Source: Bryoerythrophyllum caledonicum (taxonomy: Eukaryota; Streptophyta; Bryopsida; Pottiales; Pottiaceae). Taken from it: 64,000 nucleotides of DNA. Under the pieces are notes generated by a model. The model worked only from the letters and a program-made list of their open reading frames with translations. It was not told the DNA's origin and made no database searches. Location of the stretch: the NCBI GenBank assembly GCA_963971425.1, contig OZ020523.1, positions 13,946,867-14,010,866 of the forward strand. Direction: 5' to 3'. The translations under genes and the position numbers were made by a program. This document shows positions 8,382-43,125 of this stretch, in pieces (the stretch's first letter is position 1; every line of letters starts with the position of its first letter).

Positions 8382-9868
8382 GGCCCTTGTCTTTCTTCTT
8401 TTACTACTTTGCTCCCAAATTGTTGCATTTTAGACCTAGATACGATTGGTAATTAAATGATGCAGCTATGGTTCTTTTATATACCTTTGTTTTACAGCTC
8501 CGAATTCTAAATGTACTGTAGTACGTGAACCTTTATACATACAGTATGTTGGATCAAAATACGTAGAAGAGTGAAAAACATGTAGCATTTAGAGTGTTTA
8601 GCCACATTTATATCAAGTAGCTGAACTAAACAGTAAAGTTATTGTCATCATTCATAAATAATTTGACTTGAAGAATTAGGATAAAATTACACTACAAATG
8701 TCCGGATAAGACATACAGCCGAATATTCTACCAAGAAATTCAGGAGCATGAATTTCTGTCATCCCGAAACTCAACCGCAACAAGGAAACTGCACACAGTT
8801 TATTTATTTCGCACAAAGAGAATCAAAAGATTCAATTACGAAGGATCAACAATCTGGTCAAAACTTATGTAAAAGATCTGATATTTTCTTTCTGTAGTAC
8901 ACAACAAGATGTTGCGATCAAAGTGATATCACCATTTGTAATTTGTTATGTTGGCACTATGAATGGTTGTTATGAAATTCTATTTTCTAAATCATAGTTG
9001 GTCCTTTACGGCTACAACGTCACATATGGTGCACAATCCATACCAAGTATCCAATCATGATACAAATTTTTCACGATGACTGCAATAATCTTCCAATCCA
9101 TACGGAAAAAAATCACAAATCTTTTACCACATTATCTCATACAAGTTTCAAAAAAGATCCTATGGTTATATTGTCAAAATTTTCATCTTGGCAAGTAATC
9201 ATCTTTATCATACCCCAATCTTGCTTTTTCCCCCTTTCTTCATCTTTTCATTCCTTGCTTTTTCACTCCCAGCCTCTATGATTGAACTTCCAATTTAAGT
9301 CTTGAATGAAGATGAGAAGCGTGACCTCTGAATCTCGCAAGTTCAAAAAAAGCAGCAAGTATCGGATCCCGGAGGAATCTCAAGGAAACTATTTACAACT
9401 TTGTTTCATGTTTTCCCCATGTTTGTTTTGGTCTGAAGGAATTCCTTCACCTGCCCGAATCCAAAACTTTTCACCAGATTCTCCAAAGATTCCAGGCTCA
9501 TAAGTCGATGCCCATATTATTTTTGGGTGCTTTTCGAACCATCTCCCTTTTCCTTAATCTTTGCCGCCATGAGCGACATATTTAGCCCCATTCTCGACAA
9601 TCTGTTCCCCGTGACTTCCAACATTTTTATACCCCGAGCCGTACGCCTTTTTCTTCAAGTACATACTGGATGCTTCTGGACCCTTTTTTCCTCTTCGTCC
9701 CCAAGAATTCCTAATTTCTCGGTGTAAATTTGGATTAAAAAAACTCAGGAAATACGAAGTTATTGTTTCAATTTAACGGCTCAGATCTTATCTGATTTTG
9801 AATATGTTTGGCACCTTCGCAAGAGTTTGGGTTTTTCTTCTCTTTTGACCCAAACTTTCCTTAACCTT
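8382..9868. other. AT-rich intergenic stretch
   Basis: No coding region, RNA gene or repeat boundary that I can support; only short, low-complexity open frames. Confidence 0.4.
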
Positions 9869-10799
9869 TTAACCCCTAAAGGACCAAACGTCCCCCCGGG
9901 GTCATTTTGGATTTTGGGCATGTACCTACAATTTGAAAAAAAATCCTTTTTAATTGAATTTTTTTTTCAAGATAGGATCTGATAAGAGCTTCGTGGAGAT
10001 TTTTTTTAATCTTTTTTTGGATTTGTGGTTTGAAAGTTAGTACCACTTAAAGCCAAAAGTGGGACTTCGGGCACCTCCAAAAATTTTGACAAAAGTTTCT
10101 ATTGACATTGAGATTTTTCACACATATAAAGAATATTTCCTTATTTAGAAAATTTCAAAAAAAATTCTTGTCTTTAGTGTAAAAAGGCATTTTATTCCAA
10201 GTCAAACATTTTCACACATTGTTGGGCAACGGGGAAAAAAACTTCATCTTTCCTACATAAAACCTAGAGATCTTCATATTTTTCACTTTTTTTTTTTTCA
10301 ACAACAATATATGGTGAAAACCTTCTTATTGACCGTTTGGATTATCATTTGAATACATACGTAGTTCACAAAAAAATAAAACGTGAAATGGCAATTTTTG
10401 AACCTCCACTCCTTGCACACTTGATTTGAATATGCTACACCCCTTTTTTACCTCTAAAAATTGGTGTGTTGGGAAATAGCATCATGCTGAAGACAATGGT
10501 AAAAGATTTAGACCCTGTACAATGCAAAAATTTGATACAAAATGAAGTCAAAGTCAGCTGATCTACTCTACGCAGGGATGAAAATGAACCATTGTTTGAC
10601 TTTAAACACTAAAATCTATCAATCCATGCGGTGGATTGCAACCAAAATTTGATGGCATGTTTATATGGAAGTCTATTTTAAGATCTTACGGTTGAAAATC
10701 CAAAATTCACTTTAAAATGTGATTTTCATGTCTCTTTTTGACAGTGGCAGTTTTGGACTGGTTTCAGAGCGAATTAGGTCGTGGTCCTTTAGGGGTTAA
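9869..10799 (-). mobile_element. TTAA-terminated repeat, copy 2 (complete)
   Basis: Both ends are intact. The left end TTAACCCCTAAAGGACCA is matched by the exact reverse complement at the right end (10782-10799), an 18-bp perfect terminal repeat in a 931-bp unit. The internal blocks run in reverse order relative to copy 1. It carries no recognisable protein, so it is non-autonomous. The TTAA may be part of the repeat or a duplicated TTAA target as used by piggyBac elements; one copy cannot decide. Confidence 0.75.
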
Positions 10800-10949
10800 T
10801 AATGAAGTGGTCAGAGGTGGTGGATGAGACCGGTTTTCGAGGAGCCACCGTTGATTGAACCGTTGGATTGATTTGCACTAGTCGGAGCGGCGATGCACTT
10901 TGCTTTCCTCCATCTAACCGAGCTTCTTGATCTCCGATCGGTATAGGCA

Positions 10950-12034
10950 TTAACCCCTACAATATCAAGTCATTTTCTAAACCAAGAATACTTCAAAACT
11001 GCTTGTTTCAGTGCAATGAGTTAGGAAGAAATCCAAAACTTTTATTTCTAGTTTTAACCGTAGGATCTCAATTAAGACTTAATAAGTAACATACTCACAA
11101 AAATTCATAAACTTTGACGGCACGGATTGAAAGATTACGAAGTTTGAAGCATTGAACAGGATTCATTTTCTTCCTTGTGTTTAGCAGATTAGCAACAACC
11201 CTTTTTTGTTTGAGTGGGATAGTCACAATGGCTACAGAGGCCAGAGAGCTGTAGCACTTGTGGCTTTCTTCTGAAACCATACAAACCAAAATTTCTCCAT
11301 AAATACCCATTTGGGAGAAATCATCTCCATAAATATTGAATTGAATATCTTTTTTGGCAATAGGATGGAGTCATGGCTATTTACTAGTGGCAATATGGCA
11401 ATATGGCAACGGCCATGAATGAAACTTTAGCTATATAAATTTATAACTTTCCACTTTATTTGGAAGTATTCCTTTTTGGAAATTTTTATAGCCAATTTGG
11501 CTCCAGATTGCCAAAAAAGAAAGGGCTGATCAACAAACTTTGACTTCACTTGGTGTCCAATTTTTGCACTACAGAAGGTCTAAATTCATTACCACTGGTA
11601 TGTTAAGCATGATATTAGTTCCTTGAATACCAATTTTTAAAGGTAGAAGGAGAGTGTAGCATATTTTTTAAAATTGTGCAAGGAGTAGAGGTTCAAAATT
11701 TCTCAATTCACATTTTATTTTGTTGTGAACTTATTTTGTTTTAGAATGAGAATCCATATGGTCAATAAGAAATTTTACACCACATAAATCTGTATTTAAA
11801 ATTAAAAATATATAATATATAATATTATAATCTCAAAGTTTTTTTGGGAAATGAAGAAGTTTTTCGGGTACCTTGCCCGACAATGTTTGACAATGTGTGC
11901 AAATGTTTGGCTTGAATTTATATGCTATTTGTCACTAAAGACAAGAGATTTTTTTTGACAACATGAAAGGAAATAATATTATTTGATAGTATTGAAAATC
12001 TCACATTCAATAGAGTGTCCTAACAAAAGTTTTT
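10950..12034 (+). mobile_element. TTAA-terminated repeat, copy 3, left part
   Basis: It begins TTAACCCCTACAATATCA and follows the family order up to GTGTCCTAACAAAAGTTTTT. There the gypsy-type retroelement interrupts it; the missing continuation (GGAGTTGCCC) resumes at 21,615. A hAT-like MITE is also nested inside at 11,196-11,528. Confidence 0.65.
11196..11528. mobile_element. hAT-like MITE nested in TTAA copy 3
   Basis: This 333-bp sequence is homologous along its length to the MITE at 24,496-24,824 (shared GGCTACAGAGGCCA and TTTGGCTCCAGAT blocks). Its ends are CAACCCTTTTTT and AAAGGGCTG. The flanking octamers ATTAGCAA and ATCAACAA agree at 6 of 8 positions, an eroded 8-bp target duplication as expected for hAT elements. 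Confidence 0.65.
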
Positions 12035-12464
12035 TGTTGTGTAAAGAAAGATCGATAACCACAACGGAATCACAGATTGAGAGTCCTAACCAGCATTAAA
12101 TAAACAAAAAACATACACTAAAACAAGTATACGTAGTACACCCTCAAGTGCCCCCCCTAGCAAATAAAGAGACCCTCTATCTAGCAACGACCAAACAACA
12201 CTAATAAGACTAAACTCCACAGTGATGTTGCTGCAACAACTATACGCATTTAATCGAAGTTGTCGCCCGTTGCCAAATCAATAAGCATAGGAAGAAGTAA
12301 CAAAGAGAAAGTAGGTCGGGTGCAATGTGAGCACCATCTTTAATCGCCTTAAACAACTTTGTTGCCAATCCCTTAGTCAATTTTCACTTTGCCTATCCCT
12401 GAATCGAAACCAGGAACTCCAACTGGATGGCAACGCACCACACAATGACAAGTCTACAAGGAAT

Positions 12465-12836
12465 TCAAGCTGTTATATAGGGTGAAACGTGGCTTGAAGA
12501 CCTCTGACAACGAGGGCAAGTCCAATCCCCGAATGGTAGAGTAAAAAGAGGGGGCATCAAGCAAGCCATATGCCAACGACGCTGGCAATGAACACAAAAC
12601 AACATGGTAGCTGCGCCCTTCTCTTTCCCACACACGAAACACAAAAGACCATCAGGCACAATAGCCAACTTCCGATGAACGGAGCCATCAATGACTAAAT
12701 GGCACATGGCACAATTCTTAGAGTGCTCCCGACACTCCCGGCCATTCTTGCCTTCCAACAACAAAATGCCACTAGCTAACACATCCTTCTGGCAAAGAAT
12801 AGTACACCCTGCCTTGACGTCCAACATCGTGGGCAC
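12465..12836 (-). pseudogene. PHD-finger module at the 3' end of the retrotransposon polyprotein
   Basis: A 123-codon open frame contains a C4-H-C3 zinc pattern: CFVC, 11 residues, CVHC, then WH, AC, about 15 residues, W-T-CPRC. This is the PHD-finger layout, a fold that commonly reads histone H3 tails. It lies downstream of integrase, where chromoviruses carry a chromodomain, so a targeting role is a reasonable inference. A further Cys/His pair upstream (CREH..CAMC) may be part of an extended zinc region. The frame is open here, while the rest of the polyprotein is broken. Confidence 0.75.
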
Positions 12837-13130
12837 CTCACGCTACAGATGAACGTAATCCCCTATAGAAAAACCCCGAAACTGAGGTTGACATGCACTG
12901 CTATGAATACGAGCGTACCGTAAGGTGTCACGGTGCTAAGCAATGTATAAGTTTTCCATGGCCATAGTCATGACCCGCTTGAAGAACTCCGTTCAATCCC
13001 ATAGACACTAGGCCTACACATCTAGATCGTCCAATTCTACAATCAAAGGCAACTTCTCCCGAATGGAACTCGGTAAAATTGGCTCTCGCCCATATAACAA
13101 CTAATACGCACTAAAAGCAGCAAGTGAAGC

Positions 13131-13560
13131 CTACCAGCTAAATCGATACCTCATGGAAATTCTTGGTATCATCATATGCCAATCGCCGTGGCGACCTTCA
13201 AGTATTCCATACTTTCGTAGGCGCCGCTTTACGATCTGCACCACACGCTCTGCCAAACCATTCGCTTCTGAATGATCTTGAGAAGTGGTACGGTGGTCAA
13301 TCAAAGCTTTGGTACACAAAGCTTCAAAAGCCCCAAGGAACCCACGCCCCTGGTCAGTTAAAACCTCAGTTGGGGCCCAAAACAAGCCAACACCCAGTTA
13401 AGGAATGTCATGGTTGTCAACTCTGAAGAATTTTGAGGAAGAGCGACGAGCTCAATCTACTTGCTAAAATGCTCCACCATTACCAAGACATACTTGGCTT
13501 TGTTGGAGTCACAACAAGTAGATCAATAAAGTTCAAAGATCACTACTATCCAAGCCCTAT
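13131..13560 (-). pseudogene. Integrase core remnant
   Basis: The segment around 13,385-13,131 reads PTEVLTDQGRGFLGAF, followed by EANGLAERVVQ, giving the second Asp and the Glu of the DDE triad. Upstream frames, broken by stops, contain WSLNFIDLLVV and KYVLVMVEHFSK, matching the strand with the first Asp. This is the rve integrase fold that inserts the cDNA. Frameshifts near 13,400-13,560 disable it. Confidence 0.8.
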
Positions 13561-15859: not shown

Positions 15860-16870
15860 TGGTCATGCAAACGACATTGAACGGCAAAACAAAGGCCACA
15901 AATCCAAACAAGAGTGTTGTGGTCAATGGCTTGACCCAATAGATAACGACGATGACCCTGAGAAAAATCCAGTGCAGCAATGGTGCCTGTCAAAAAGCCC
16001 ATCGTCCGTTCTCTCTCATCGGCCAAAGGCTCTCGTAAGTTTGGAAAGTAGAATCCCAAACCATACCCGGACAGCATATTCTAAAGGCAAAAGACCCCGG
16101 GTAGCACATCAATGTGGAAAATGCCCCCCGAGTGAAACCAATGCGGTTCACCACCGCCAATGGTGGCTCATCATCCTTGGTTAACTCCTTAGAAACATGG
16201 TGGTCGTCCAAGATGCCATCGACCTCATGGCGAACAGGCCATTGCACTTAAGCAAGTGCAAAGGTGGGTGTCGCCGATGATGCCATGTTGGTCCCTATAC
16301 AACATGACCAATGGGCGTAAGAGCCCAACGTTGTGGCATCTACAAACATGGAAAACCAAGAAGATGATGGATGTATGTTCCATCCTCACACACCTTCGTC
16401 CGTGTAACCCCTATTTGGGATACATTCTCAAAAATATATCCAGGTGGGATCGAGTGGTGGATAATCTACCACTGGATATGCTTGAGCAAATCCGCAAAGA
16501 GCCCCGATTGTGGATCATCCAAGCCACCTCCACTCCCCGCCCGTGAATGGCCTAATCACAAAGTCCACATAACTAAACCGGCGCAGATCATCCTCACTGA
16601 TCAATGTCACATCACGTGGAAGTTTGCCAAAACCCCCTAAAAGGCATAAGGTGGTAACTCCTCTGGATACAACGCTAGAAGATGATGAATGTGATGGTGA
16701 GTAGCACGATTGGCTACAAAGCCACTATCCACGTGGATGTACAAGCATACCTTGAGCCCGGTCTATATCACAGCCGCGAGCTCCGTACCAATACCGACAA
16801 ATAGCTCTACAAGGGTAATATCCTCATCCGGTGGTCGCCACTGAATAGTACGAGACAACAACAGAGTAGA
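15860..16870 (-). pseudogene. DNA (cytosine-5) methyltransferase-like domain inside the retrotransposon
   Basis: Between protease and RT the minus strand reads, across frameshifts, the ordered motifs of a C5 methyltransferase. Motif I, the SAM-binding loop, is TLVELFVGIGTELAAVI (about 16,830-16,766). Then come DLRRF..VDFVI, a GLDDPQSGLFADLLK block, motif VI PPGYIFENV (about 16,422-16,445), MFVDATTLGSYAH, DDEPPLAVVNRIG, and a motif X-like RYLLGQAIDHNTLVW (about 15,947-15,904). The PCQ motif IV with the catalytic cysteine is not present; at its expected place (about 16,540-16,567) only GHSRAG remains, as if a few codons were deleted. The copy is dead. Retrotransposon-borne DNMTs are known from the charophyte Klebsormidium and from dinoflagellates (de Mendoza and colleagues, 2018, as I recall it). 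Confidence 0.78.
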
Positions 16871-17340
16871 AGAGTCCACTGAGAGATGTAGAGCATCCAG
16901 AGCGTCAACAATCTCCCAACTGCAATGTGTGAGCTCCAACTGAGTTTCCCATCGAAGAAGTGGATCTTTGCAATGACGTGTAGGGATTTCCACTGATCTA
17001 TACTCACCTGATTCCACTACCCCGACATAAAATCATATGTCTCCTCCAAAACCATAGAACCACATGGAAAATTGGATACCAAAGCACTACACCCGATTGT
17101 AGCATCCGCAGTGGAAGTCACCGCGCTAGCTGCGAAAACAACCAGAATGAGCTCCTTTCTGCCATCACCGGCAGACCACCCAGGCCTAATCTACACCTCC
17201 TCCATCTAGTTATCCATTCCATAACCGAGCTCATAAAGTGTTTGCTGACACACCAAATTGTCATAGTTGGTGGCGCCAGTCACAACGCACTGGAGAGATA
17301 CGTTGGAGAATAATGGACAAGATCCCATGCCGAACATCAA

Positions 17341-17613
17341 CTACAATGGATGTCGGGTGTATCTCATAGCCTTCTCCGTACCCCCAACCGATGTGACAAT
17401 CGTAAATGGGCAAGGCTTAAGGTCCAATGCACAAAGATCCAAATCTTGGGTTAGTTGCTTGCCAATCATCACCGGCTGAGCTCCGAAGTCCAACATAACA
17501 CACAGGGGAATAGCTTGAACGGGGATGTCGTCCGTATGGCCAACCACCATGACTCCGTCGTCATTCACCAAGTGTACCACCTCTAGATGCACACTATGTT
17601 GCTCCCGTGCCAA
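17341..17613 (-). pseudogene. Retroviral-type aspartic protease remnant
   Basis: A 90-codon frame contains IPLCVMLDFGAQPVMIGKQL, where the LDFGAQ segment corresponds to the catalytic D-S/T-G-A loop of retropepsins, here D-F-G-A. A downstream DLDLCALDLKPCPFTI segment fits the flap region. It precedes the methyltransferase and RT segments, as expected for gypsy pol. Confidence 0.65.
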
Positions 17614-18181
17614 TCAGGCCGCATCATTAGGAGATAAGCCACTCCATATATCAATGATTAATCCCAAAGGACTGCTTCGTAGGTGTGGAACCAGCATTGG
17701 CCTCAAACGCGGAAATAGACTCCGCCGCCAACTTGGTCCACATTGCTACGAAATATTCCTGATTGAGTGGAGCCGTCACTACTTGGAACACCTCCAACGA
17801 TGGCATGGGCACCTTGCCCTCCAATATACTACCGCCCAAGTGAAATACACCGGATGGCTGAAAATTCGGTGTCAGAAAGTCGACATTGGCAAACCCCGGG
17901 AACTGCAACACCTTCACGCCAAGGTGTGTGCAGCATCTTTACGACTAAAGAAACTAGTGGGATCGAAATTGGAGTGGGAGCAACAATAGAAGTAGACGCA
18001 TCTGCGATGCTCAACAAAAGAGGTATCCGAGACTAACCGATGTGGTATGGCAAACCCGTGTAGCGTGGACGGCTAGTACTACCTAGCACAGAGGGTGAAA
18101 GTGCCACTGCTTGTGCGATAGTGTGAGCACGAGTGACAACTGTTGCTACCACCTTTCTTGAAGTGTCATACAAGTAGCAAT

Positions 18182-19640
18182 CTAGACTCTAGAGCTGAAG
18201 ATGAGCCTTGATCCCTGACTGGAGGCCGTGTGTCTCTCACTTGCTCCAAAGATGCCATTACGCTCATTTGCTTCTTCAGCTCCGCTAGTTCGGCTGCCGG
18301 CATGAAGTGTCTTCACCACATCTGATCGAGCAGCCAGAGACCTTAGGCGCTTCTCCAGGTGAAGAGCAAAACAATTTTCATCACTGTGGCCACAATGAAA
18401 GCATGTCACAGTCTTCTTGCCCTTGCCCCCAGCCTTTCCTATAGTCTTGGCCGCCTTGGTTTTAGGCTTGGCCTTCACTGCGGGCCCTACCCCCTTCTTA
18501 ATGAGACAAATTGAGTCTCCTTTTGTGTGACCGGCCTCTCCACAAGCTCAACAATGCACAACCTATTTAGTTTGTGCCTTCCGAAAACTATCGGCCGTGG
18601 TGGCAAGCTTCTTAGACTTAGCAGCGCCTATCAGCGCCGTGACCAAATTCGTGGCATCGCTCACGCTCAACACTCTATCAAACACTTCCACTTCGGCAAA
18701 CATTTGCCCCAAAGTGACGTTGCCGTGATATTAGAAAAGAAGGTGCGGACTAATCAATTCCACCATCCGCTTATCCTGTTTGGAAACAAAGGTCTTCACT
18801 AGCTGGCGCTCTATAAATACATTACTGGCCTCCACAAATAATTGTGCCAACCATGTATATATACTACGTGGGGTATTTTCCTTCTCCAGGCGAAAATCCT
18901 GAATGTGCTACATCTGATCATGCATGAACCTCTCATATTCCACCTCCAAATGCACCATGAACTGCGCTAGAGGATCGATGGCTGGCGGATTGTCAACCGC
19001 CACTTATGCCGCACGTGTGGCTACAACCAAACGGGACATGGCCCCCATGCCAGTCCATTTGCCCACAATGGCAACACCCTTGTCCCTCGAGTTCTCATCG
19101 AGGAAACTCTCTTCCACCTTGGGCTCCTCGATGGAAGTCAAGAGTTAGGCAACCGCACTCTCCTTGAGCACAGTCACCAACTTCACACGTTGGCACCGAT
19201 ACTCCTCAATGGGGCACAATTGTGCATTGTGCTGCGTGGTTTACTTCCTACATGACTATAGGGCCTCGAGCTCCATATGCTGGGGCAAGAGCTCAAACGC
19301 ATACTAGTTGTTGAACGACGCCGTCAGCTCGCGCTTTTCCTTCATCCAGGTCTGGAATCGGAGCCGCAAATCGGACAGGGAGATGCTTCTAGCCTGTTTC
19401 GAGAACTAGTCTCGCACGACATGACGGTGATCGTCCTTCATCTTGTCAAACGTGCCTACGTCCAAGACCTGAAGCTTATGGCCGGTTTCCAACGCCGGAA
19501 GAGGCTCAAAAGCCTTGTCAGTATCCGACCCTAACCCAAAGTCTACAGTGGAAGCACTCTCTGGGTGGTTTGGTGAAGGGAGGCGGTAGTATTGACCCCG
19601 AGTATTCTCCATAAACAAAAATCATCTCGAGATCTATCTA
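18182..19640 (-). pseudogene. Gag region remnant with zinc knuckle
   Basis: At 18,478-18,182 a Lys-rich stretch leads into TCFHCGHSDENCFALHLEK, a CCHC-type knuckle of retroelement nucleocapsid with a small internal deletion. The upstream part to about 19,640 holds short open fragments, for example one with HKLQVLDVGTFDKMKDDHRH at 19,618-19,406. They are consistent with a decayed gag, but I recognise no capsid motif in them. Confidence 0.6.
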
Positions 19641-21611
19641 CGAGTACTATTTAAAGAGTAAGGAAACGAACGGGCAACATTCATCTGTAAAACCATGAAA
19701 CTTTGTGGTTCATCGATCACCACCTCCAGCTAGCACATATCCAACCACAACCCCCTACATAGAATCGTCCTGTTGGCCATGAATCCGACTTTAGCCCTAC
19801 GGTATCCTATCACAATCTGGGGCAACAAGATATGGGGCCACCAAAAAACACCGGCAACAAGCCCGCAAGACGGGGGAGGTACCGCACAAGAATCTAGAAA
19901 TCAAAACCGGATTGTCTCCTTCAACAACATAAAAACATGAAAGACAAGGGATTAGAGCCATTGGCACATCCCTGCAGTGGATGGCCCAAGTCACAAATTT
20001 GCAAATACAAAGAAAAATACTAGAAGTGTATTCTTCAAAGTCTAGCACTAAGGAAATAGTTGGAACTTGTCTACGGTGTTCAAGAAACACCAATCTCCTA
20101 GTGAAATACAATCCAATGGGTGTGAAACGCAACAAACGCTAATCTACTATTAAAATTGGATAGAACGGCGGAATTCCAAACAGAGTAACAAATCATGCAA
20201 TCCCTTTCAAAAGTGCCAACGTTTTTTTTGTTTAAGAAACTCCATAAATGGATGAAAAATGGTGGATGAAACTACATCCATCCAACTACATTCACCTTTA
20301 AAATCTTGGTATTGGCAAACATTTTTAAAATTATCCAAAAATATTGATTTTCGAAAAGCCTAAAAACTATCAAAGACTGTTCCTCTGCTCTTATATGTCC
20401 TTCACAAGTTCAAATCCAAAGTCAGAATTCAAATGTAAGCAAAATTGCAAAAGTTGAAAATTTAAGGTTCAACTACAGAAACGATCTAAAATTTCCTCAA
20501 GAACTAGTGCTTTCATGTGCTTTCGGTATAGGATTGGAGACTTGGCGCAAATCCGTGTTATCGCTGCCTCCTTGAGCCACCCTACCCGGTCAATTCCGAC
20601 CACTGCAGGTCGCGCCTTGCTGCCGTAGCCCGAGTCTCTCTTTCGCCCTTAGACTAGTTGCGATCCTCGAAGTCAACGCTTGGGCCCGCAACCTTGTTAT
20701 TAGGCTCGCTCTCTTACTTGAGGGACGTGTCACCACACGTCCTGAGGGGTTGTTCCCTTGCAAGTTCCCTAAGCTCGCTCCCAAGGCTGCCCCGTTGCCT
20801 CAGTCACGGGCTTCACCGATTCTCAGGCTATCCCAAAACTTCCTTTGTAAATCCACAAAATCCACCGTCTCCCCGCTTGAGGTCAACCCCTTCCGATCAC
20901 TCTTCCAATTCCAGCTTGTCTGAAATCGCCTTCAACGAACTTGATACTGCACTGTGAAACCACTCTAGGCCTATTGTCCCTAGTTCAATATAAGAATTCG
21001 GAGATGGTGTTTGGTTGGGTGAATCACAATCATGGATGAAAAATCAGGAAGTGAACGACTGACTTTCAGCATTTGCTCCTGAACGTTGAGCTCCCACTTC
21101 CTTCACCCAAATCTTAAAGAAATCGCACACAACTATTGCATTTTAAACTAGAATAATTGTAACCCACTATTCCTCTAATCCTTACATTTTCCACAACACT
21201 TCAAATGCAAAACTAGAAAAGAAATGAGAGGGATAAGTGGAGGTCTTTGTCAAGTGAATAACTAGTAAATTACAAGAGTAGTCAAGCGTCCCCACTCCAC
21301 AAAGGGAGAATCCATGAGTGCAAATAGTATAAGAGAATGCGGAGCCATTACTAATGATAAATAATCACTTCAAGCAAAGATAATCACTAAATACTCTCTA
21401 ACTCACTCACGAAGCTTGACTTGACAAAGACGTCAAGTCAAAGACTTCTGCGGCGCTATACGCACACACACACAACCCTAAATGGATGGGAATCATCCAT
21501 GGATGAATGTGGTGTGCCGTCATAAGTCCCTAAACCCGTAGATTAGTAACAAACTAATCTACTCTAAAACACTACAATGCGGAGAGGGCCTCAACGCCAC
21601 ATCCTATGACA
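19641..21611 (-). other. 5' untranslated/LTR-candidate region of the retroelement
   Basis: No coding frame. A GC-richer block (about 20,540-20,930) contrasts with AT-rich surroundings. The terminal segment ends CCTATGACA, so on the element strand it starts TGTCATAGG, compatible with an LTR start. The matching LTR at the other end was not found by eye. Confidence 0.35.
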
Positions 21612-22599
21612 TATTGGAGTTGCCCAACGTGCTTGTTTTCCCCATTTGAACTTCAAATTCCTATAAATATTTTTCATTACATGTTGGATTTAGGAAAAAA
21701 TTGGACTCACACAAAGCTTTTAGTAAATCCATTTACAATACAGAAAACAAGATGCAAGAAGACAAGAGGTGCTTGGGATTATAATTTTTATTCTCATCAA
21801 ACTTATAGAAAAAAGTAATGCCATCTTAAAAAAAAATTGTAGAGTGCGGGCACATTGGGCAATTCCAAAAACTTTTGCTAGGATACTTTAGTAAATTTGA
21901 GATTTTCGTTACAGGCAAGTAATATTATTTCCTTTCATATTGTCAAAAAATATTTCTTGTCTTTAGTGAAAAATGCATGTTATCCCAAGTCAAAGATTCT
22001 CACATATTGCCACACATTGTCGGGCAAGGAACCATAAAAACTTCTTCTTTTCCACATAAAACCTTGAGATCTTCATATTCTAACATTTTATTTTTTCTAT
22101 TACAAGACGTGGTGTAAAACCTTCTTATTGACCGCTTGGATTATCATTCTAAAACACATTTTGTCCCCAAAATATCAAAACATGAATTGGCACTTTTTAA
22201 CCTCCACTCTTTGCACTTTTTTTTTGAATTTGCTAAATCCCTTCTCTATCGCTGCAAATTGGTGTAAAAGGAATTAATATCATGATTAACATGATGATAT
22301 ACAATGTAGACCTTGTTCAGTGCAAAACTTTTGACACCAAGTGAAGCCAAAGTCTACTAATCCACTCAACGCACGGATGAAATCGAACTATTTTTTCTAC
22401 TTCAAACACTATAATCATTCAACCCATGCGGTCAAAGTTGATGAAATCTTGAGAGTATGTTATTTATTAAGTGTTAGATGAGATCCTATGGTTAAAACTA
22501 GAAATACAATCTTTTGTTTCCTTCCTTACTTATTGCACTAGAATTTAGCAATTTTGAATAGTTTTCAGTGTGAAATTCTCAAGGAAATTTAGGAGTTAA
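21612..22599. mobile_element. Two TTAA-repeat pieces in opposite orientation
   Basis: From 21,612 to about 21,775 the sequence continues the plus-oriented copy 3 (GGAGTTGCCCAA, TACATGTTGGATTTAGG). From about 21,776 it switches to a minus-oriented copy that runs through CGGGCA and TTTGACACCAAGTGAAG blocks to AGGAGTTAA at 22,591-22,599. The switch looks like a rearranged junction. Confidence 0.55.
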
Positions 22600-23219
22600 G
22601 GGGTTGAAATCTTGGCCCTAAAATTCTCAAAAAGTGTTGCTATGTAGGCATTTTGGACGCCATCAGTCTTTCGACCTTGGTTCCTGTGTGAAAGCCAAAA
22701 GGCCAACCAAGGCCAATTTTAGGCCCTCCACCAATCAAATTGCGAAGTAGCACTTGGCCTCTCAACCCTTGGTAAGAGGGTGGAACCCTTTTCACATACC
22801 ATTGACATCTCTTTTGGGGAGGCAAACTATTGACCAACCAAAGGAAGTAGGACACCAAGAGAAGATCCGGCTGAACCAGAACTGGGAGCCTGAGTTGATC
22901 TCATCAATGAGGTGATTCTGATGCCACTAAATAGTGTAAGTAGAGCACGCCATGTTCCAAGTCGTGTGCGACAGCCAGCTGCCTTGCATCATCAGGGTAT
23001 CATTGCTCCCTACTCGCAACATTCTTCCAGCTCACATCTACATATTTACATAATTTAATATTGTTGCAAGGGTCATGAAGTTGTTGTCTTACCCCTTTAA
23101 CGTTGTGCTGGTTATAATGCGACCGTCAATATGTGAAATATAGTAGATGTTACTTTTCAGAATCTATTGTACTCACCACGCCCAACATTGAAGGTTAAAC
23201 CATACAAATTTGAAAAGCC
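22600..23219. other. Intergenic stretch
   Basis: No gene or repeat boundary that I can support. A short minus-strand frame at 22,858-22,640 has no recognisable features. Confidence 0.35.
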
Positions 23220-24145
23220 TTAACCCCTAAGGCACTGTGACAGTTTCACATCAAAAACACTTCAAAATAGTTGGATTCTAGTGCAATGAATAAAGAAGGA
23301 AACAAAAAATTTGATTTCTAGCTTTGACTGTAGGATCTCAAATACGACTTATTCAATAACATACTCAAAAAAATTCATAAACTTTGACCGCACGGATTGA
23401 AAGATTATAGTGTTTAAAGTCAAACAAATGGTTCATTTTCTTCCCTGCGTTCAGTGGATCAAAAGACTTTGACTTCACTTGGTGTCAAATTTTTGCACTA
23501 CACAAGGTCTAAATCCATTACCATTGTGTTATGCATGATGTTAGTTCCTTCTACAGTTCCTAATACAGTTGTTTTGAATATGCTATACCAAATTTTAGAG
23601 GTAAAGGACGGGTGTAGCTTATTCAAAACAATAGGAGTGGAGGTTCAAAAATTTCCAATCAATATGTATTAGATTGATAATCCGAATGGTCAATAAGGAG
23701 ATTTACACTACATATTGTTGTGGAAAAAAAAAGTAGATCTCTAAGTTAAGTGTGGAAAAGAAGAAGTTTCTGGTACCTTGCCTGACACTGTGTGAAAATG
23801 TTTGACAAGGTTAATATGCTATTTTTCACTAAAGACAAGAACTTTTTTTGACATTATGAAGGGGAAAATTATTACTTGCTAGTTTTGAAAATCTCACATT
23901 CAATAGAGTGTCCTAGCAAAAGTTTTGGAGGTGCCCAAAGTGCCCGCTCTCCCCATTTGAAATTCAAAACCCTATAATTTTTTCATTACACGTTGGATTT
24001 AGGAAAAAATTGTTCTCCCACTGAGGTCTTAGTAATGTCCTTCTACAATAAAAAATTCAAAGTGGAATGTTGAAAATTGACACCATAGGAACCTGACCAA
24101 ATTTTCAAAAAGCCCATTTTTGACACTTGGTCCTTTAGTGATTAA
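23220..24145 (+). mobile_element. TTAA-terminated repeat, copy 4 (complete)
   Basis: It starts TTAACCCCTAAGGCACTG and ends TTGGTCCTTTAGTGATTAA, a 926-bp unit close in size to the 931-bp copy at 9,869. The internal blocks are in the plus order of the family. No coding potential. Confidence 0.7.
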
Positions 24146-24495
24146 TTTAAACATATGAACTATTCTATGGAAATCATATCCTATCCTTTTCATCAACACA
24201 ACAATATCAATATTCTACATCACAATCATACTGGACTTCATCTCCATGGAGTTTCCAGATGCAAGACACGGTTCTGAACAAGAAAGTCGTTTGAGATAGC
24301 CGAAGGTGTTACAGTGTTGACCATGGAGTTGGCAGTGCATAATCCGGACATCTAAATCTCCGCTCTCTGAAACCTGTTGCTTAGCGCCACGAAATGTACC
24401 ACACATACATTCATTCTGTTTTACTATTGAAGAGCAGAACCTGTACATGTACGTCGAGAGGATAGATCTGAGCCTGAACAAACAACATCCGTCAC

Positions 24496-24824
24496 CAGCC
24501 CTTATTTTTTTTTGCCACAGTGGCTACAGAGGCCAAGGAGCTGTAGCACTTCTGTCTTTCTCCTCAAACTATACGAAACCAAATTTTATCCATAAATATC
24601 CATCTCCGAGAATCATCTCCATAAACATAGAATTGTACATCCTTCTTGACGATAGAATGGAGTCCCAACTATTCATTAGTGGCAAGATGGCAATATAACA
24701 ACTGCCATCATTGAAGTTTTGTCAACATGAAATCATAAATTTCCCACTTTTTTGGGAACATTCTTTTCGTGGGAAATAAAAATCGCAATTTGGCTCCAGA
24801 TCAACAAAAAAAAAATAAGGGCTG
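24496..24824. mobile_element. hAT-like MITE with perfect 8-bp target duplication
   Basis: This 329-bp element begins CAGCCCTTATTTTTTTTT and ends in its reverse complement (..AATAAGGGCTG). It is flanked by the direct octamer TCCGTCAC at 24,488-24,495 and 24,825-24,832. An 8-bp duplication with CAG..CTG ends is the hAT signature. It has no transposase and is a sister of the element at 11,196-11,528. Confidence 0.85.
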
Positions 24825-30276: not shown

Positions 30277-31715
30277 TACAGTAAAATGGAACACCTACTA
30301 CCATCGAGTGCTACCACCTTGAGCTGCTATTACAACTTTCATCCGAGTTGGCATTGTTGAAATCAACTTCTTGATGCTTTCTTGAGGTATATCCTCCCAA
30401 GCCAGATTGACTGATGTCCACATTTCGTCTTTGTTTCGTGGTCTATTTCTCTGTTGCACTTGATCTTTAACTTGCTTCCAGACATTCTCTATAGGATTAA
30501 GGTCAGAAGAATTTGGTGGCCATTCAAGCTTTTTCAATCCAAGTTGCTCTCTCCAATCTTTTTGTATATTACTACCATGTACTGGAGCACCATCCTCCAT
30601 TAAAATGAGGTGCTCATAGTGGTCATGGTGCCAATAGTAATGCTCTAATGCTCCTTGAGATACTATCTCTACAAAGTCTTTGGCAGTGCGTCTATTAGAA
30701 GGAATTAACACCAAGTAAGACTTAGAAGAGCCAATGATAGCACCCCATACCATAATTGAAGTCCTTCCGGATTTGAATGTAGGTGCTAAGCAATTGTAGT
30801 TGTAGCGTTCATGTGCTTTTCGCCATACACGAATTTGGCGTGATGGTTTTCCAACTTCAAAGGATGACTCATCGGTCCAAATCACATTACTCCAATCGTC
30901 AATCGTCCAATGTAAGTGCTCCTTTGCAAAAGCCAACCTCTTTGCCTTGTGTATGTCACTCAAGAATGATTTCTTCACTGCAATGCAACTGTTAATACCA
31001 AGCTCATGAAGCTTTTTACGTAAAGTTGACATGCCCACGGCAGATGTCACATTGCTGCACAATTCTGCAAGAGGAGCACGACGATTACTACTAAGATCTC
31101 TATGGAGCTTTCTCCTATCTCGATCACTCATGTTTCGCGGCCTACCGGACCTACTTGCTGGCAATACAGAGCCACTAATTCTAAATTGCTTGAGAATCCT
31201 TGAAATAGTCGATTTTGGCCTTCCTACAATGTTTCCAATTTCACTCACTGACATGCCAGCTTTCTGCATACCAACTATCATGTGTCGTATATCATTTGAT
31301 ACATAACTCCTTGTCATGGTGCACAATCCTCAAACAACACTTACATCCACAAAAAGTTTGATAAAAAAGGTCCTAACAACAACACAGAAACGATATGTTT
31401 GACAAACAGGACTTGTTGCACACAATTTTTCTAAGAAATGTGTACCATCAAGATGACTTGCAAACATGTATGTGTATCTCTGGACCCTCCCAAGCTCAAA
31501 CATACTCAACATCTGATATCACATGGCAATGGATGTCTCTTTATATTTAGAAAATGCATGGTGTATAAAGGTAACTGGAACACCTTCCATGATGCAAAAA
31601 ATCTCATGGAGATGTGATGATTATCATGCCAACACCATCATTCTAAATCAGGCCATGGGATATGTTTTAAGTGAAAAAACAGAATGTGTTGCAACACTTG
31701 TTACAGGGTACTGTA
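30277..31715 (-). mobile_element. Tc1/mariner-superfamily element, apparently complete
   Basis: The left end reads TACAGTAAAATGGAACACC (30,277). The reverse complement of the right end (31,715) reads TACAGTACCCTGTAACAAGT. The first seven bases match exactly, with further agreement at TG.AACA. Removing the outer TA on each side as target duplication leaves an element of about 1,435 bp with CAGTA..TACTG ends. That is the usual Tc1 size and TA target. It contains a single uninterrupted transposase gene and sits inside a TTAA-type repeat. Confidence 0.85.
30298..31317 (-). CDS. Tc1-type (DD34E) transposase
   Basis: A cut-and-paste transposase of 339 aa, the family's normal length, with no stop or frameshift. 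The ATG at 31,317 is chosen; the frame is open upstream only via a TTG. The N-terminus carries paired helix-turn-helix domains for terminal-repeat binding (VGMQKAGMSVSEIGNIVGRP, then a second helical region about residues 60-120), separated by a GRPR AT-hook-like motif (58-61). The catalytic triad is D149 in WTDESSF, D242 in LMEDGAPVH and E277 in NSSDLNPIENVW. The last spacing is 34 residues, so DD34E rather than the DD39D of common plant mariner-like elements. The stop lies 21 bp from the left element end. It may be active or recently so; expression is not visible from sequence. Confidence 0.93.
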   Translation of the reverse strand: MTRSYVSNDIRHMIVGMQKAGMSVSEIGNIVGRPKSTISRILKQFRISGSVLPASRSGRPRNMSDRDRRKLHRDLSSNRRAPLAELCSNVTSAVGMSTLRKKLHELGINSCIAVKKSFLSDIHKAKRLAFAKEHLHWTIDDWSNVIWTDESSFEVGKPSRQIRVWRKAHERYNYNCLAPTFKSGRTSIMVWGAIIGSSKSYLVLIPSNRRTAKDFVEIVSQGALEHYYWHHDHYEHLILMEDGAPVHGSNIQKDWREQLGLKKLEWPPNSSDLNPIENVWKQVKDQVQQRNRPRNKDEMWTSVNLAWEDIPQESIKKLISTMPTRMKVVIAAQGGSTRW

Positions 31716-40357: not shown

Positions 40358-43125
40358 ATGGCGCTCTCAGCCATGGCGATCTGCGTCCTGGCGCTGCTCT
40401 TGCTGTCGTCTCCTGCTGCCGCGTTCTACCTGCCTGGCGTTGCGCCCATGGACTTCGAAGAGGTTTGAGTTTCGGAGTTTTTCTAGGGTTTTGGAGTGTG
40501 TGATTTTGGGGATGTGTTGGGTGATGTGTTGTTTTTTCTGCAGAATGATGTTGTTACGGTGAAGGTGAACAAGCTGACGTCGATCAAGACGCAGCTGCCG
40601 TACGAGTACTACTCGTTGGACTACTGCATGCCGCAGAAGGTTGAGAACATGGCTGAGAATCTGGGAGAGGTTCTCAGGGGCGACCGCATCGAGAATTCGC
40701 CTTATGAGGTTCGTATGGCGGCATTTTGATCTTGTTGTTTGAGAATTAGAGCAGCTGAAGTTTGAATGAGTTCTGATGCCGGTTATTTTTTTTTACGAGT
40801 GGTGACAGTTCGAAATGAAGAACGACCAGCTGTGCAAGATCGTATGTCGGAAGGATAAGTTCTCTGAAGAATCTCTGAAGAACTTCAAGGAGAAAATCGA
40901 TGGCGACTATCGTGTGAACATGTGAGTGTGTTACCAGAAGTCGCATTTTTTCTTTGTTATTTTAGTTAAATGGTTTTTTGACAGTTGATATCAACGTCTT
41001 CTGGCAGGATTTTGGACAATTTACCAGTTGCTGAAGTCAGGGCGAGGCATGATAATGAAAAGGTTGTCAAGTACTACGATCGCGGTTTCGCTGTTGGGTT
41101 CAAGCAGACTGTTCAGGTGTGTTCTCTGCTTTTTTTCTTTGTTAGATTGCGAAGACGCTTGCGCTTCTTTTTGTTTGTGGTGTGAACTGTTGTTCTCACC
41201 AATGCTTTTCTCCTTCCACAGGGTCTCAAAGAGCCGAAGTACTACATCAACAACCACATCTCGTTCAATGTGCTCTATCACAATGTGACTGAATCAGTTT
41301 CGCGAATTGTAGGCTTTGAAGTTAAACCACACAGGTTTGCATCCATCGTTAATAAGATGTCTGGAATCCTATCTCAAAGTGTCCGTGTCTTTCTCCTTGG
41401 TTCAGCACCACTGCTTTTCGATTATATTCTAGGAAGCAGCAAATTTTGAGACAATCTGCGAACTGAAACTTGTATAAAACTCTCGTGTTTGCCAGCTAGT
41501 CTTGCTAAATATCCTGTTGTCGGTAAACTCATGACTTAGAAGCATCTCACACTGACTGATTCATTTTCGCAGCGTGAAGCACACTTATGACCGTTGGGAG
41601 AACCAGAAGACGAGACTGAGCACCTGCAATCCCAACACCAGAACCTACGTCTCACCCAGCCAACCTCCTCAGGAATTGGCCGCAGATCTGGAAGTCGTTT
41701 TCACCTACGGCATCTCATTCCAGGTAAAAAAACTCTCTTCCTCAACTTCACATGCTAAATCGTCCGATTTCAGCCAATATCGCCTTCTCAAATGTCACAT
41801 TTGGTAGTAGAAAGAAATGGTTCAATGTAAGTAGGAATGTTTGTGACCCTGTTCAGTATCACGATTCTGAGGATGTTCTTTGGAATTAAGGTTCTGTGAT
41901 GTTGTAGAAGGTGACCTCAAAAGGGATTAGAGTGCATGATCCTCTGACTATGATGCTCTGGTTTCTGCAGAGAAGCGACATCAAGTGGGCATCGCGTTGG
42001 GACACTTACCTTCTGATGGCAGACGACCAGATCCACTGGTTCTCCATTGTAAACTCCCTCATGATCGTGCTCTTCCTGTCTGGCATGGTGGCCATGATCA
42101 TGATGCGCACGCTGCATCGCGACATCTCCAAGTACAACCAGCTGGACGCGGAGGATCTGCAGGAGGAGACGGGGTGGAAGCTGGTGCATGGCGACGTGTT
42201 CCGGCCGCCAACCCATGCGGGCCTGCTCTGCGTGTACATCGGCACGGGCGTGCAGTTCTTCGGCATGGCTGTGGTGACCATGATCTTTGCGCTCTTCGGC
42301 TTCCTCTCACCTGCAAATCGTGGTGGTTTGATGACCGCCATGCTGCTGCTGTGGGTGTTCATGGGGCTGTTTGCCGGGTATGCGTCCTCGCGCCTGTACA
42401 AGACGTTCAAGGGCACGGACTGGAAGTCGAACACAATGCGGACGGCGCTCTTCTTCCCGGGCAGCGTGTTTGTGGTCTTCTTCATCCTGAACGCGCTCAT
42501 CTGGGGGCAGAAGTCCTCCGGCGCCATCCCGTTCGGCACCATGTTCGTGCTCATGTTCCTGTGGTTCGGCATCTCCGTGCCGCTTGTGTTTGTGGGCAGC
42601 TACTTCGGCTTCAAGCGGCCCGTGGTGGACGACCCGGTGCGCACCAACAAGATCCCGCGCCAGATCCCTGAGCAGGCGTGGTACATGCGTCCCGTGTTCT
42701 CCATCCTCATCGGTGGCATCCTCCCGTTTGGAGCCGTCTTCATCGAGCTCTTCTTCATCCTCACGTCCATCTGGCAGAACCAGTTCTACTACATCTTCGG
42801 CTTCCTCTTCATTGTGTTCCTCATCCTGCTCATCACGTGCGCCGAGATCACCATCGTGCTCTGCTACTTCCAGCTCTGCAGCGAGGACTACCACTGGTGG
42901 TGGCGCGCCTTCCTCACCTCCGGCTCCTCCGCCATCTACCTCTTCCTCTACGCCGCCTTCTACTTCTTCACCAAACTCGACATCACCAAGGTCGTCTCCG
43001 GCGTGCTCTACTTCGGCTACATGGTCATCATCTCCTACTCTTTCTTCGTCCTCACCGGCACCATGGGCTTTTGTGCGTGCTACTGGTTTGTGCGCGTCAT
43101 CTACGGATCCGTCAAGATCGACTGA
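40358..43125 (+). CDS. Transmembrane 9 superfamily (TM9SF/EMP70, nonaspanin) protein
   Basis: Endomembrane (Golgi/endosome) nonaspanin of 636 aa, normal for the family. Seven exons: 40,358-40,462; 40,544-40,708; 40,809-40,921; 41,008-41,116; 41,222-41,334; 41,573-41,723; 41,971-43,125. All introns are GT..AG and all joins keep frame. The start gives a signal peptide ([20 protein letters not shown], cleavage near residue 22) followed by [11 protein letters not shown], the conserved mature start of the family. A luminal domain includes YYSLDYC. The last, GC-rich exon carries nine hydrophobic spans. The tail ends GSVKID, the KxD-type COPI-binding Golgi-retention signal known for plant TM9SF proteins. 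A second Met at residue 6 is possible but less likely. Members act in membrane-protein sorting and adhesion; the exact role here is inference. Confidence 0.96.

Follow-up and report, generated by a model that had tools for sequence, protein, structure and literature searches.

Retrotransposons that carry a DNA methyltransferase (DNMT) are, judged by their published descriptions, an already known kind of element. The one reported from Klebsormidium in 2018 is a Gypsy element with a Dnmt3 domain and repeats in the order A-coding-B-A-B, and in dinoflagellates SymbioDIRS-Dnmt3 likewise has A-coding-B-A-B repeats, with DNMTs that methylate CG in yeast (PMC5890265, in the text available). The accessible portion of a 2025 paper mentions only "streptophytes and dinoflagellates", citing the 2018 work (PMC12344493), and that of another denies such elements to land plants, by which it may mean tracheophytes only (PMC6338049). 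In the literature searched, which left preprints and most subscription journals out of reach, no report of bryophyte DNMT-Gypsy elements was found. Here, we describe such an element from the moss Bryoerythrophyllum caledonicum, in a stretch of 64,000 nucleotides of contig OZ020523.1 (the window, to whose positions all coordinates below refer). It is a single decayed Ty3/gypsy element on the minus strand, from 21611 to 12035 by blastn of a copy from the same genome (L027) against the window. We lean, if only slightly, towards reading it, jointly with the mechanism proposed below, as the relic of an autonomous moss Ty3/gypsy lineage with a captured DNMT3-type catalytic domain held under selection.

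The first-pass annotation had read a retrotransposon-borne C5 methyltransferase here, and for this moss, a land plant, the reading is supported both by homologues and by relatives in the same genome. Translated in three frames, the minus strand shows first a gag region bearing a pair of zinc-knuckle-like motifs; next come a protease motif and then those of the methyltransferase, followed by reverse transcriptase (RT), RNase H, integrase and, last, a PHD finger. The quoted motifs are present in the order that had been claimed, LVELFVGIGTELAA at 16813-16772, PPGYIFENVS at 16447-16418 and RYLLGQAIDHN at 15948-15916, and they do sit between the protease-like LDFGAQPV (within 17502-17470) and RT with the start of RNase H (15180-14300; PF00078 E 8.3e-22, PF17919 E 1.5e-15). 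The DNMT3-like domain itself (15860-17000) contains several stops and is split into five frame pieces. It also lacks the motif IV stretch, which intact relatives have as VIAGWPCQG, and enzyme activity of the window copy is therefore very unlikely.

As to the identity of METHYLTRANSFERASE, the window translation, pieced together with X at each stop and break, matched 13 proteins (5918 candidates; E 8.8e-39 to 4.7e-184), the best of them 66% identical across the whole query, and a chance match of motifs is thereby ruled out. Ten of the 13 carry PF00145, all six that were scanned exceed its curated cut-off, and one relative (P0001) has the protease region and the DNMT in a single frame. The assignment to Pfam DNA_methylase thus stands for the relatives (PF00145 E 6.6e-14 in copy L013 and 5e-12 in L027; six of six homologues) but not for the window domain, which has no match at a maximum E of 10 under HMMER filters that discard most weak matches; read literally, this is the refuting outcome that the annotation had named, but for this copy alone. 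In intact relatives the C5-methyltransferase motifs follow the canonical order without rearrangement and include both PCQ and ENV; the window copy lacks PCQ. Among solved structures, the domain is closest to DNMT3 by profile (E 2.8e-17, against 3.4e-4 and weaker for DNMT2-type tRNA methyltransferases) and by its predicted fold, the best fold matches of which include DNMT3-DNA complexes; the PDB match lists contain no DNMT1-type chains, though absence from them does not exclude a family.

The genome that was searched comprises 437 Mb in 894 contigs. A PF00145 search returned 123 scored matches among 1054 candidates, 20 of them in open frames of more than 1300 residues (one with a stop inside the match), and 20 copies (L011-L030) were fetched from the PF00145 matches, mostly for their long open frames and not as a random sample. 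The intact copies that the annotation had proposed to look for exist. The first open reading frame (ORF1), Gag-protease-DNMT, is open at 1353-1371 amino acids in 14 of the 20, and the second (ORF2), RT-RNaseH-integrase-PHD, at 1041-1047 amino acids in eight, all within those 14. Both lie in the same frame, and in 18 copies (not L019 or L023) a single TAG, with CAA-CCA or CAA-TCA next, stands between them. The TAG-CAA context recurs in locus L001 and in the window, where TAG and then CAATCA (15591-15583) end the Gag-protease-DNMT frame; we take UAG-CAR-YYA to be a leaky stop of the tobacco mosaic virus type. L001 (CADCWO010000201.1) and P0006 belong to family contigs filed as Synechococcales and Candidatus Obscuribacterales bacteria, and are probably plant contaminants in metagenome bins. 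A phage or virus source was considered and rejected, an IMG/VR scan having given one relative (L002, 31% identity) among 16 stretches.

The 20 copies split into subfamilies A (15) and B (5), and the window copy is B-like, with 82.3% identity to L027 over 8109 aligned bases; the A copy L013 matches just 411 columns. The order protease-RT-RNaseH-integrase with an rve core is found in L013 and L027, with protease matches that fall below the Pfam cut-off, and by its domain order, rve core and 4-bp target duplications the family belongs to the Ty3/gypsy long terminal repeat (LTR) retrotransposons. The DNMT is integral to it. A B-type DNMT query gave 106 scored places (2395 candidates), besides the second subfamily, and an RT-only query gave 144 (4819 candidates), the first 60 of which (97-100% identity, with further rows at 97% following) were compared with all 106. 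At 53 of the 60, the same strand has a scored DNMT match no more than 5 kb upstream, in 49 cases at 475-481 bp; six of the other seven carry DNMT DNA (95-100% identical across the 601 bases read), and the seventh is cut within it. A late insertion of the DNMT into one copy, absent from its sisters, is ruled out by this pairing. The terminal repeats of L013 and L014 (both A) are 100% identical over the stretches compared, so these insertions are probably recent, and L028 and L029 may be one locus assembled twice, because the 20 bases before their 5' ends are common to both. On contigs C642, C792 and C836 of the moss assembly (G000), RT copies only 81-84% identical to B, with open frames of 992-1045 amino acids, perhaps form a third subfamily. 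One of the PF00145 matches (L003, G000:C14:16016358-16017317), judged by eye from its frames, is a full-length, bacterial-looking C5 methyltransferase; it adjoins an IS-type transposase frame within a chromosome-sized moss contig, and may be contamination, misassembly or transfer.

Beyond this genome, querying proteins with the domain from an open moss copy found at least 63 (7993 scored candidates). Among the matches listed were 14 from Marchantia polymorpha, three from Closterium and one from Sphagnum fallax (P0062), the last a partial domain without PF00145 in the table. Certain bryophyte proteins annotated as "DNA (cytosine-5)", P0020 for one, resemble transposon polyproteins. Trees were built by a quick search, with Shimodaira-Hasegawa-like approximate likelihood ratio (SH-aLRT) support only, from 26 rows having both domains, namely four loci and 22 of 27 proteins (P0025, P0035, P0043, P0062 and P0068 were dropped for short RT stretches). 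Subfamily A groups with Marchantia (SH-aLRT 90 for DNMT, 96 for RT) and B adjoins A plus Marchantia (97 and 99), an agreement that argues for one old capture of the DNMT in that branch. The DNMT comes before RT in 13 rows and after it in 13, and in both trees a branch separates the two layouts. In the second layout the DNMT lies between RNase H and integrase (P0049-P0052, P0054, P0056, P0058, P0064-P0067, P0071 and P0073), and all 13 DNMT-after-RT proteins also have a PHD finger (PF00628).

The ratios of nonsynonymous to synonymous change (dN/dS) between A sublineages are low, at 0.037-0.038 for DNMT, 0.021-0.027 for RT and likewise for integrase, 0.063-0.073 for Gag, 0.079-0.103 for protease and 0.107-0.132 for PHD, in pairs that repeat one comparison and are not independent; those for Gag and DNMT are rough, because dS there (1.65-1.87) approaches saturation. 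Between subfamily B and L001 the values are 0.079-0.103 for DNMT, 0.016-0.017 for protease, 0.104-0.112 for Gag, 0.032 for RT, 0.020 for integrase and 0.206 for PHD. Ratios are higher in close pairs, whose distances are small: in the A pair L011/L025 (DNMT 0.475, Gag 0.723, protease 0.524) and in the B pair L026/L027 (DNMT 0.154). In comparisons of L013/L014/L021 with L011/L024/L025, dS is this high in Gag and DNMT but 0.67-0.87 in protease, RT and integrase, an inequality that may reflect exchange between lineages.

In the window copy, the gag-like region (18260-19650) holds the two zinc-knuckle-like motifs at 18547-18515 and 18403-18371, zinc knuckles being binders of RNA; its zf-CCHC matches are sub-threshold only, and L013 gives PF00098 at E 3.5e-5. 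The aspartic protease region (17030-17660) has a weak PF13650 match (E 0.15) and is also covered by a zf-NOSIP match (E 2.2e-4) below that family's cut-off. The decayed integrase core (13040-13420) gives PF00665 at E 0.23, as against 9e-14 in L027. The PHD finger (12490-12641; PF00628 E 1e-8) ends the integrase frame at its C-terminus and is closest, among its best matches, to the fingers of PHF12, CHD4, KDM5, PHF21A and UHRF1, which read the histone H3 tail. At the extremities are one A and one B, the form A1-body-B: A1 (21256-21611) has 79% identity to L027 in an alignment of 462 columns, part of them leader, and B (12035-12150) is 88% identical to the B of L027, aligned from 12148 to 12035, with its first two bases placed by eye. 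The 5' terminus is TGTC and the 3' terminus CAACA, and the flanking bases AATA and AAAA (three of four matching) are what a decayed or absent target duplication leaves.

In the relatives, the terminal repeats run A1-body-B1-A2-B2, and the exact junction ACGACA-GC-TGTCA is found in 15 of the 20 copies and in L001, with three in L022; L017, L023 and L025 terminate in B without it, and no end of either kind was found in L020 or L030. Exact 4-bp duplications lie outside TG...CA in all eight copies seen at both ends, five with the junction (CCTC in L013, TAGT in L014, AGGA in L011, AGCA in L026 and GTGC in L027) and three with a single B (AGCT in L025, AACT in L017 and CCGT in L023). Directly after A1 stands ACTTGA(C/G)AAAGA(C/T), which over all 13 bases is the exact reverse complement of a stretch inside A1; in the window these are the primer binding site (PBS) ACTTGACAAAGAC at 21243-21255, at the end of A1, and the self-primer GTCTTTGTCAAGT at 21419-21431, the predicted RNA 5' end. 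The pairing holds in eight of nine regions searched (the ninth was wrongly cut), with compensatory paired changes between A, B and L001, and in the L027 region none of 300 single-base shuffles gave a stem of 12 or more, four giving one of 11. A purine tract, AGGGGGGG at 12151-12158 of the window, stands directly before B1.

Reverse transcription between this polypurine tract and the self-primed PBS would make an LTR that reads B+A. Since tract and PBS flank B+A, yet insertions run from A to B, the most economical interpretation has integrase acting at the B|A junction of a circle, circle-junction integration being an old idea. Integrase would cut the internal GACA-GC-TGTC junction, a one-LTR circle giving A-body-B and a two-LTR circle A-body-B-A-B. 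Quite possible too, if short of probable, is that unequal recombination between LTRs, or switching of the template from one to another, gave rise to the A-B-A-B layout. Recombination of B1 with B2 can yield single-B copies that would retain the duplications, and unequal exchange would also be expected to produce extra B-A units such as those of L022, where (with L037, oriented 9299-11327) tandem units, each about 599 bp long, stand at the 3' end of one copy. What speaks for the circle junction over recombination is that, in both forms, ends and duplications fall exactly at TG/CA, while tract and PBS flank B+A, and that the two-base GC spacer recurs in 15 of 20 copies.

With the DNMT ahead of a leaky stop, there would be one methyltransferase per Gag: each Gag precursor would bear a DNMT and RT would be made only by readthrough, so that particles would be loaded with methyltransferase. 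In the particle or the nucleus, the enzyme would methylate cytosines of the element's own new double-stranded DNA, before or at integration, and the PHD finger would read the histone H3 tail and steer the integrase. Methylation of the element's own new DNA, a reasonable proposal that the annotation had also raised, would in our view be the most likely role of the domain; de Mendoza et al. suggested the like for the elements that they described (PMC5890265, in the part available). A wholly self-contained write-and-read system, in which the particle-loaded DNMT marks new DNA, the circle integrates through a single staggered cut by integrase at the palindromic GACA-GC-TGTC within the LTR, the PHD finger picks the site and insertions arrive methylated, would be an unlikely combination as a whole. 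With L027 standing in for the ancestor, C-to-T and G-to-A make up 767 of the 1434 changes in the window copy, and decay per site on the two strands is 0.27/0.22 at CG, 0.26/0.22 at CHG and 0.15/0.12 at CHH, an excess at CG and CHG as expected for a long-methylated element.

That footprint, in a family of numerous copies, would also fit a DNMT acting in trans on the host or on other copies, seeding methylation of the family as a self-limiting control of copy number that spares the host and so the element. Purifying selection requires merely some benefit to the element, and a slowing of retrotransposition is among the options in PMC5890265 (text available). We nevertheless consider action in trans improbable: fusion of the DNMT to Gag and protease would point to the particle, methylation in trans would aid competitors as much as the element itself, and mosses have methyltransferases of their own (PMC10952607 and PMC8566409, as far as their accessible text goes). 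Large accessory domains can also persist for structure, and the domain might be catalytically idle, a passenger or structural spacer retained so that the polyprotein folds. This is very improbable, given its dN/dS between A sublineages, the invariance of ENV, AHRPR and ELF-GIG across seven aligned open domains and the presence of PCQG in 26 of 27 moss loci (L004-L030, except L009) and in L001, though loci found through PF00145 are biased toward intact motifs. Methylation of RNA, whether genomic RNA or self-primer, as the authors suggested for SymbioLINE-Dnmt, would suit a DNMT in the same frame as Gag and its zinc knuckle but is hardly probable at all for a domain whose profile is far from the DNMT2 type and whose best fold matches include DNMT3 bound to DNA.

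Self-methylation by a selected, captured DNMT3 also has evidence to answer. Weighing against it are the two limits given above on the ratios between A sublineages, the higher dN/dS of DNMT than of protease, RT and integrase between B and L001, and the deeper parts of the DNMT and RT trees, which differ or are weakly supported. The CG and CHG excess is explained equally well by host enzymes. Moreover, in the available text of PMC5890265, KnitGypsy-Dnmt3 gave no methylation in yeast, a result its authors call inconclusive, and retrotransposons without a DNMT also move in such genomes.

Elsewhere in the window, diverged direct and inverted repeats flank the element (10061-12034 and 21867-24767), which is nested in these older repeats. 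An open Tc1/mariner-like transposase frame (DDE_3, HTH_Tnp_Tc3_2) lies on the minus strand at 30301-31329, and an EMP70/TM9SF exon is open for 405 residues at 41908-43122. The best matches of this exon, over 95% of the query, are 97% identical in Ceratodon purpureus, 93% in Physcomitrium patens and 87% in Marchantia, which identifies the host as a moss from its sequence too.

Tf1 primes its own reverse transcription, and DIRS/PAT elements, which have a tyrosine recombinase, are not known to make a target duplication. Membership of the latter is rejected for the moss family, which has an rve core, 4-bp duplications and, in the Pfam matches of the two ORF pairs scanned, no recombinase. SymbioDIRS-Dnmt3 and SymbioLINE-Dnmt share with it a retrotransposon-borne DNMT, but the former has a tyrosine recombinase and the latter is a LINE (PMC5890265, text available). 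Tf1/Sushi and Tcn1 chromoviruses share a self-priming PBS in a Ty3/gypsy element (PMC6317226); the moss family differs in its DNMT, PHD finger and split repeats, and neither "methyltransferase" nor "PHD" occurs in the main text of that paper. Bryophyte hosts likewise have DNMT3-type enzymes (PMC10952607, PMC8566409 and PMC9516144, in the portions available), which by their descriptions are host genes, set apart from the domain of a multicopy polyprotein.

Closest is KnitGypsy-Dnmt3 of Klebsormidium nitens (de Mendoza et al. 2018, PMC5890265, in the text available), with its Gypsy domains, unrearranged Dnmt3-type domain, purifying selection and A-coding-B-A-B repeats, a layout said to be that of DIRS and found in the moss relatives. 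There, however, the DNMT lies in the Pol polyprotein ORF, a feature absent from the moss family, where it ends the Gag-protease frame with a UAG before RT in 18 of 20 copies, although readthrough would join the frames. Because of this difference, and because the comparison is with a published description and not with Klebsormidium sequence, the moss family is like KnitGypsy-Dnmt3 and not a proven member. The PHD finger, self-priming site, 4-bp duplications and B+A reading of the LTR go beyond that description; "PHD" has no occurrence in its main text. Good genetics in Marchantia and other bryophytes make any gain from self-methylation testable, and the ends pose a second question, that of a DDE-integrase element seemingly integrating at an internal LTR junction. 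To the known kind, this large and partly recent moss family, with relatives in Marchantia and Sphagnum, adds a bryophyte range with many copies, a Gag-side DNMT with its leaky-stop signature, a PHD finger, self-priming, 4-bp duplications and a permuted LTR.
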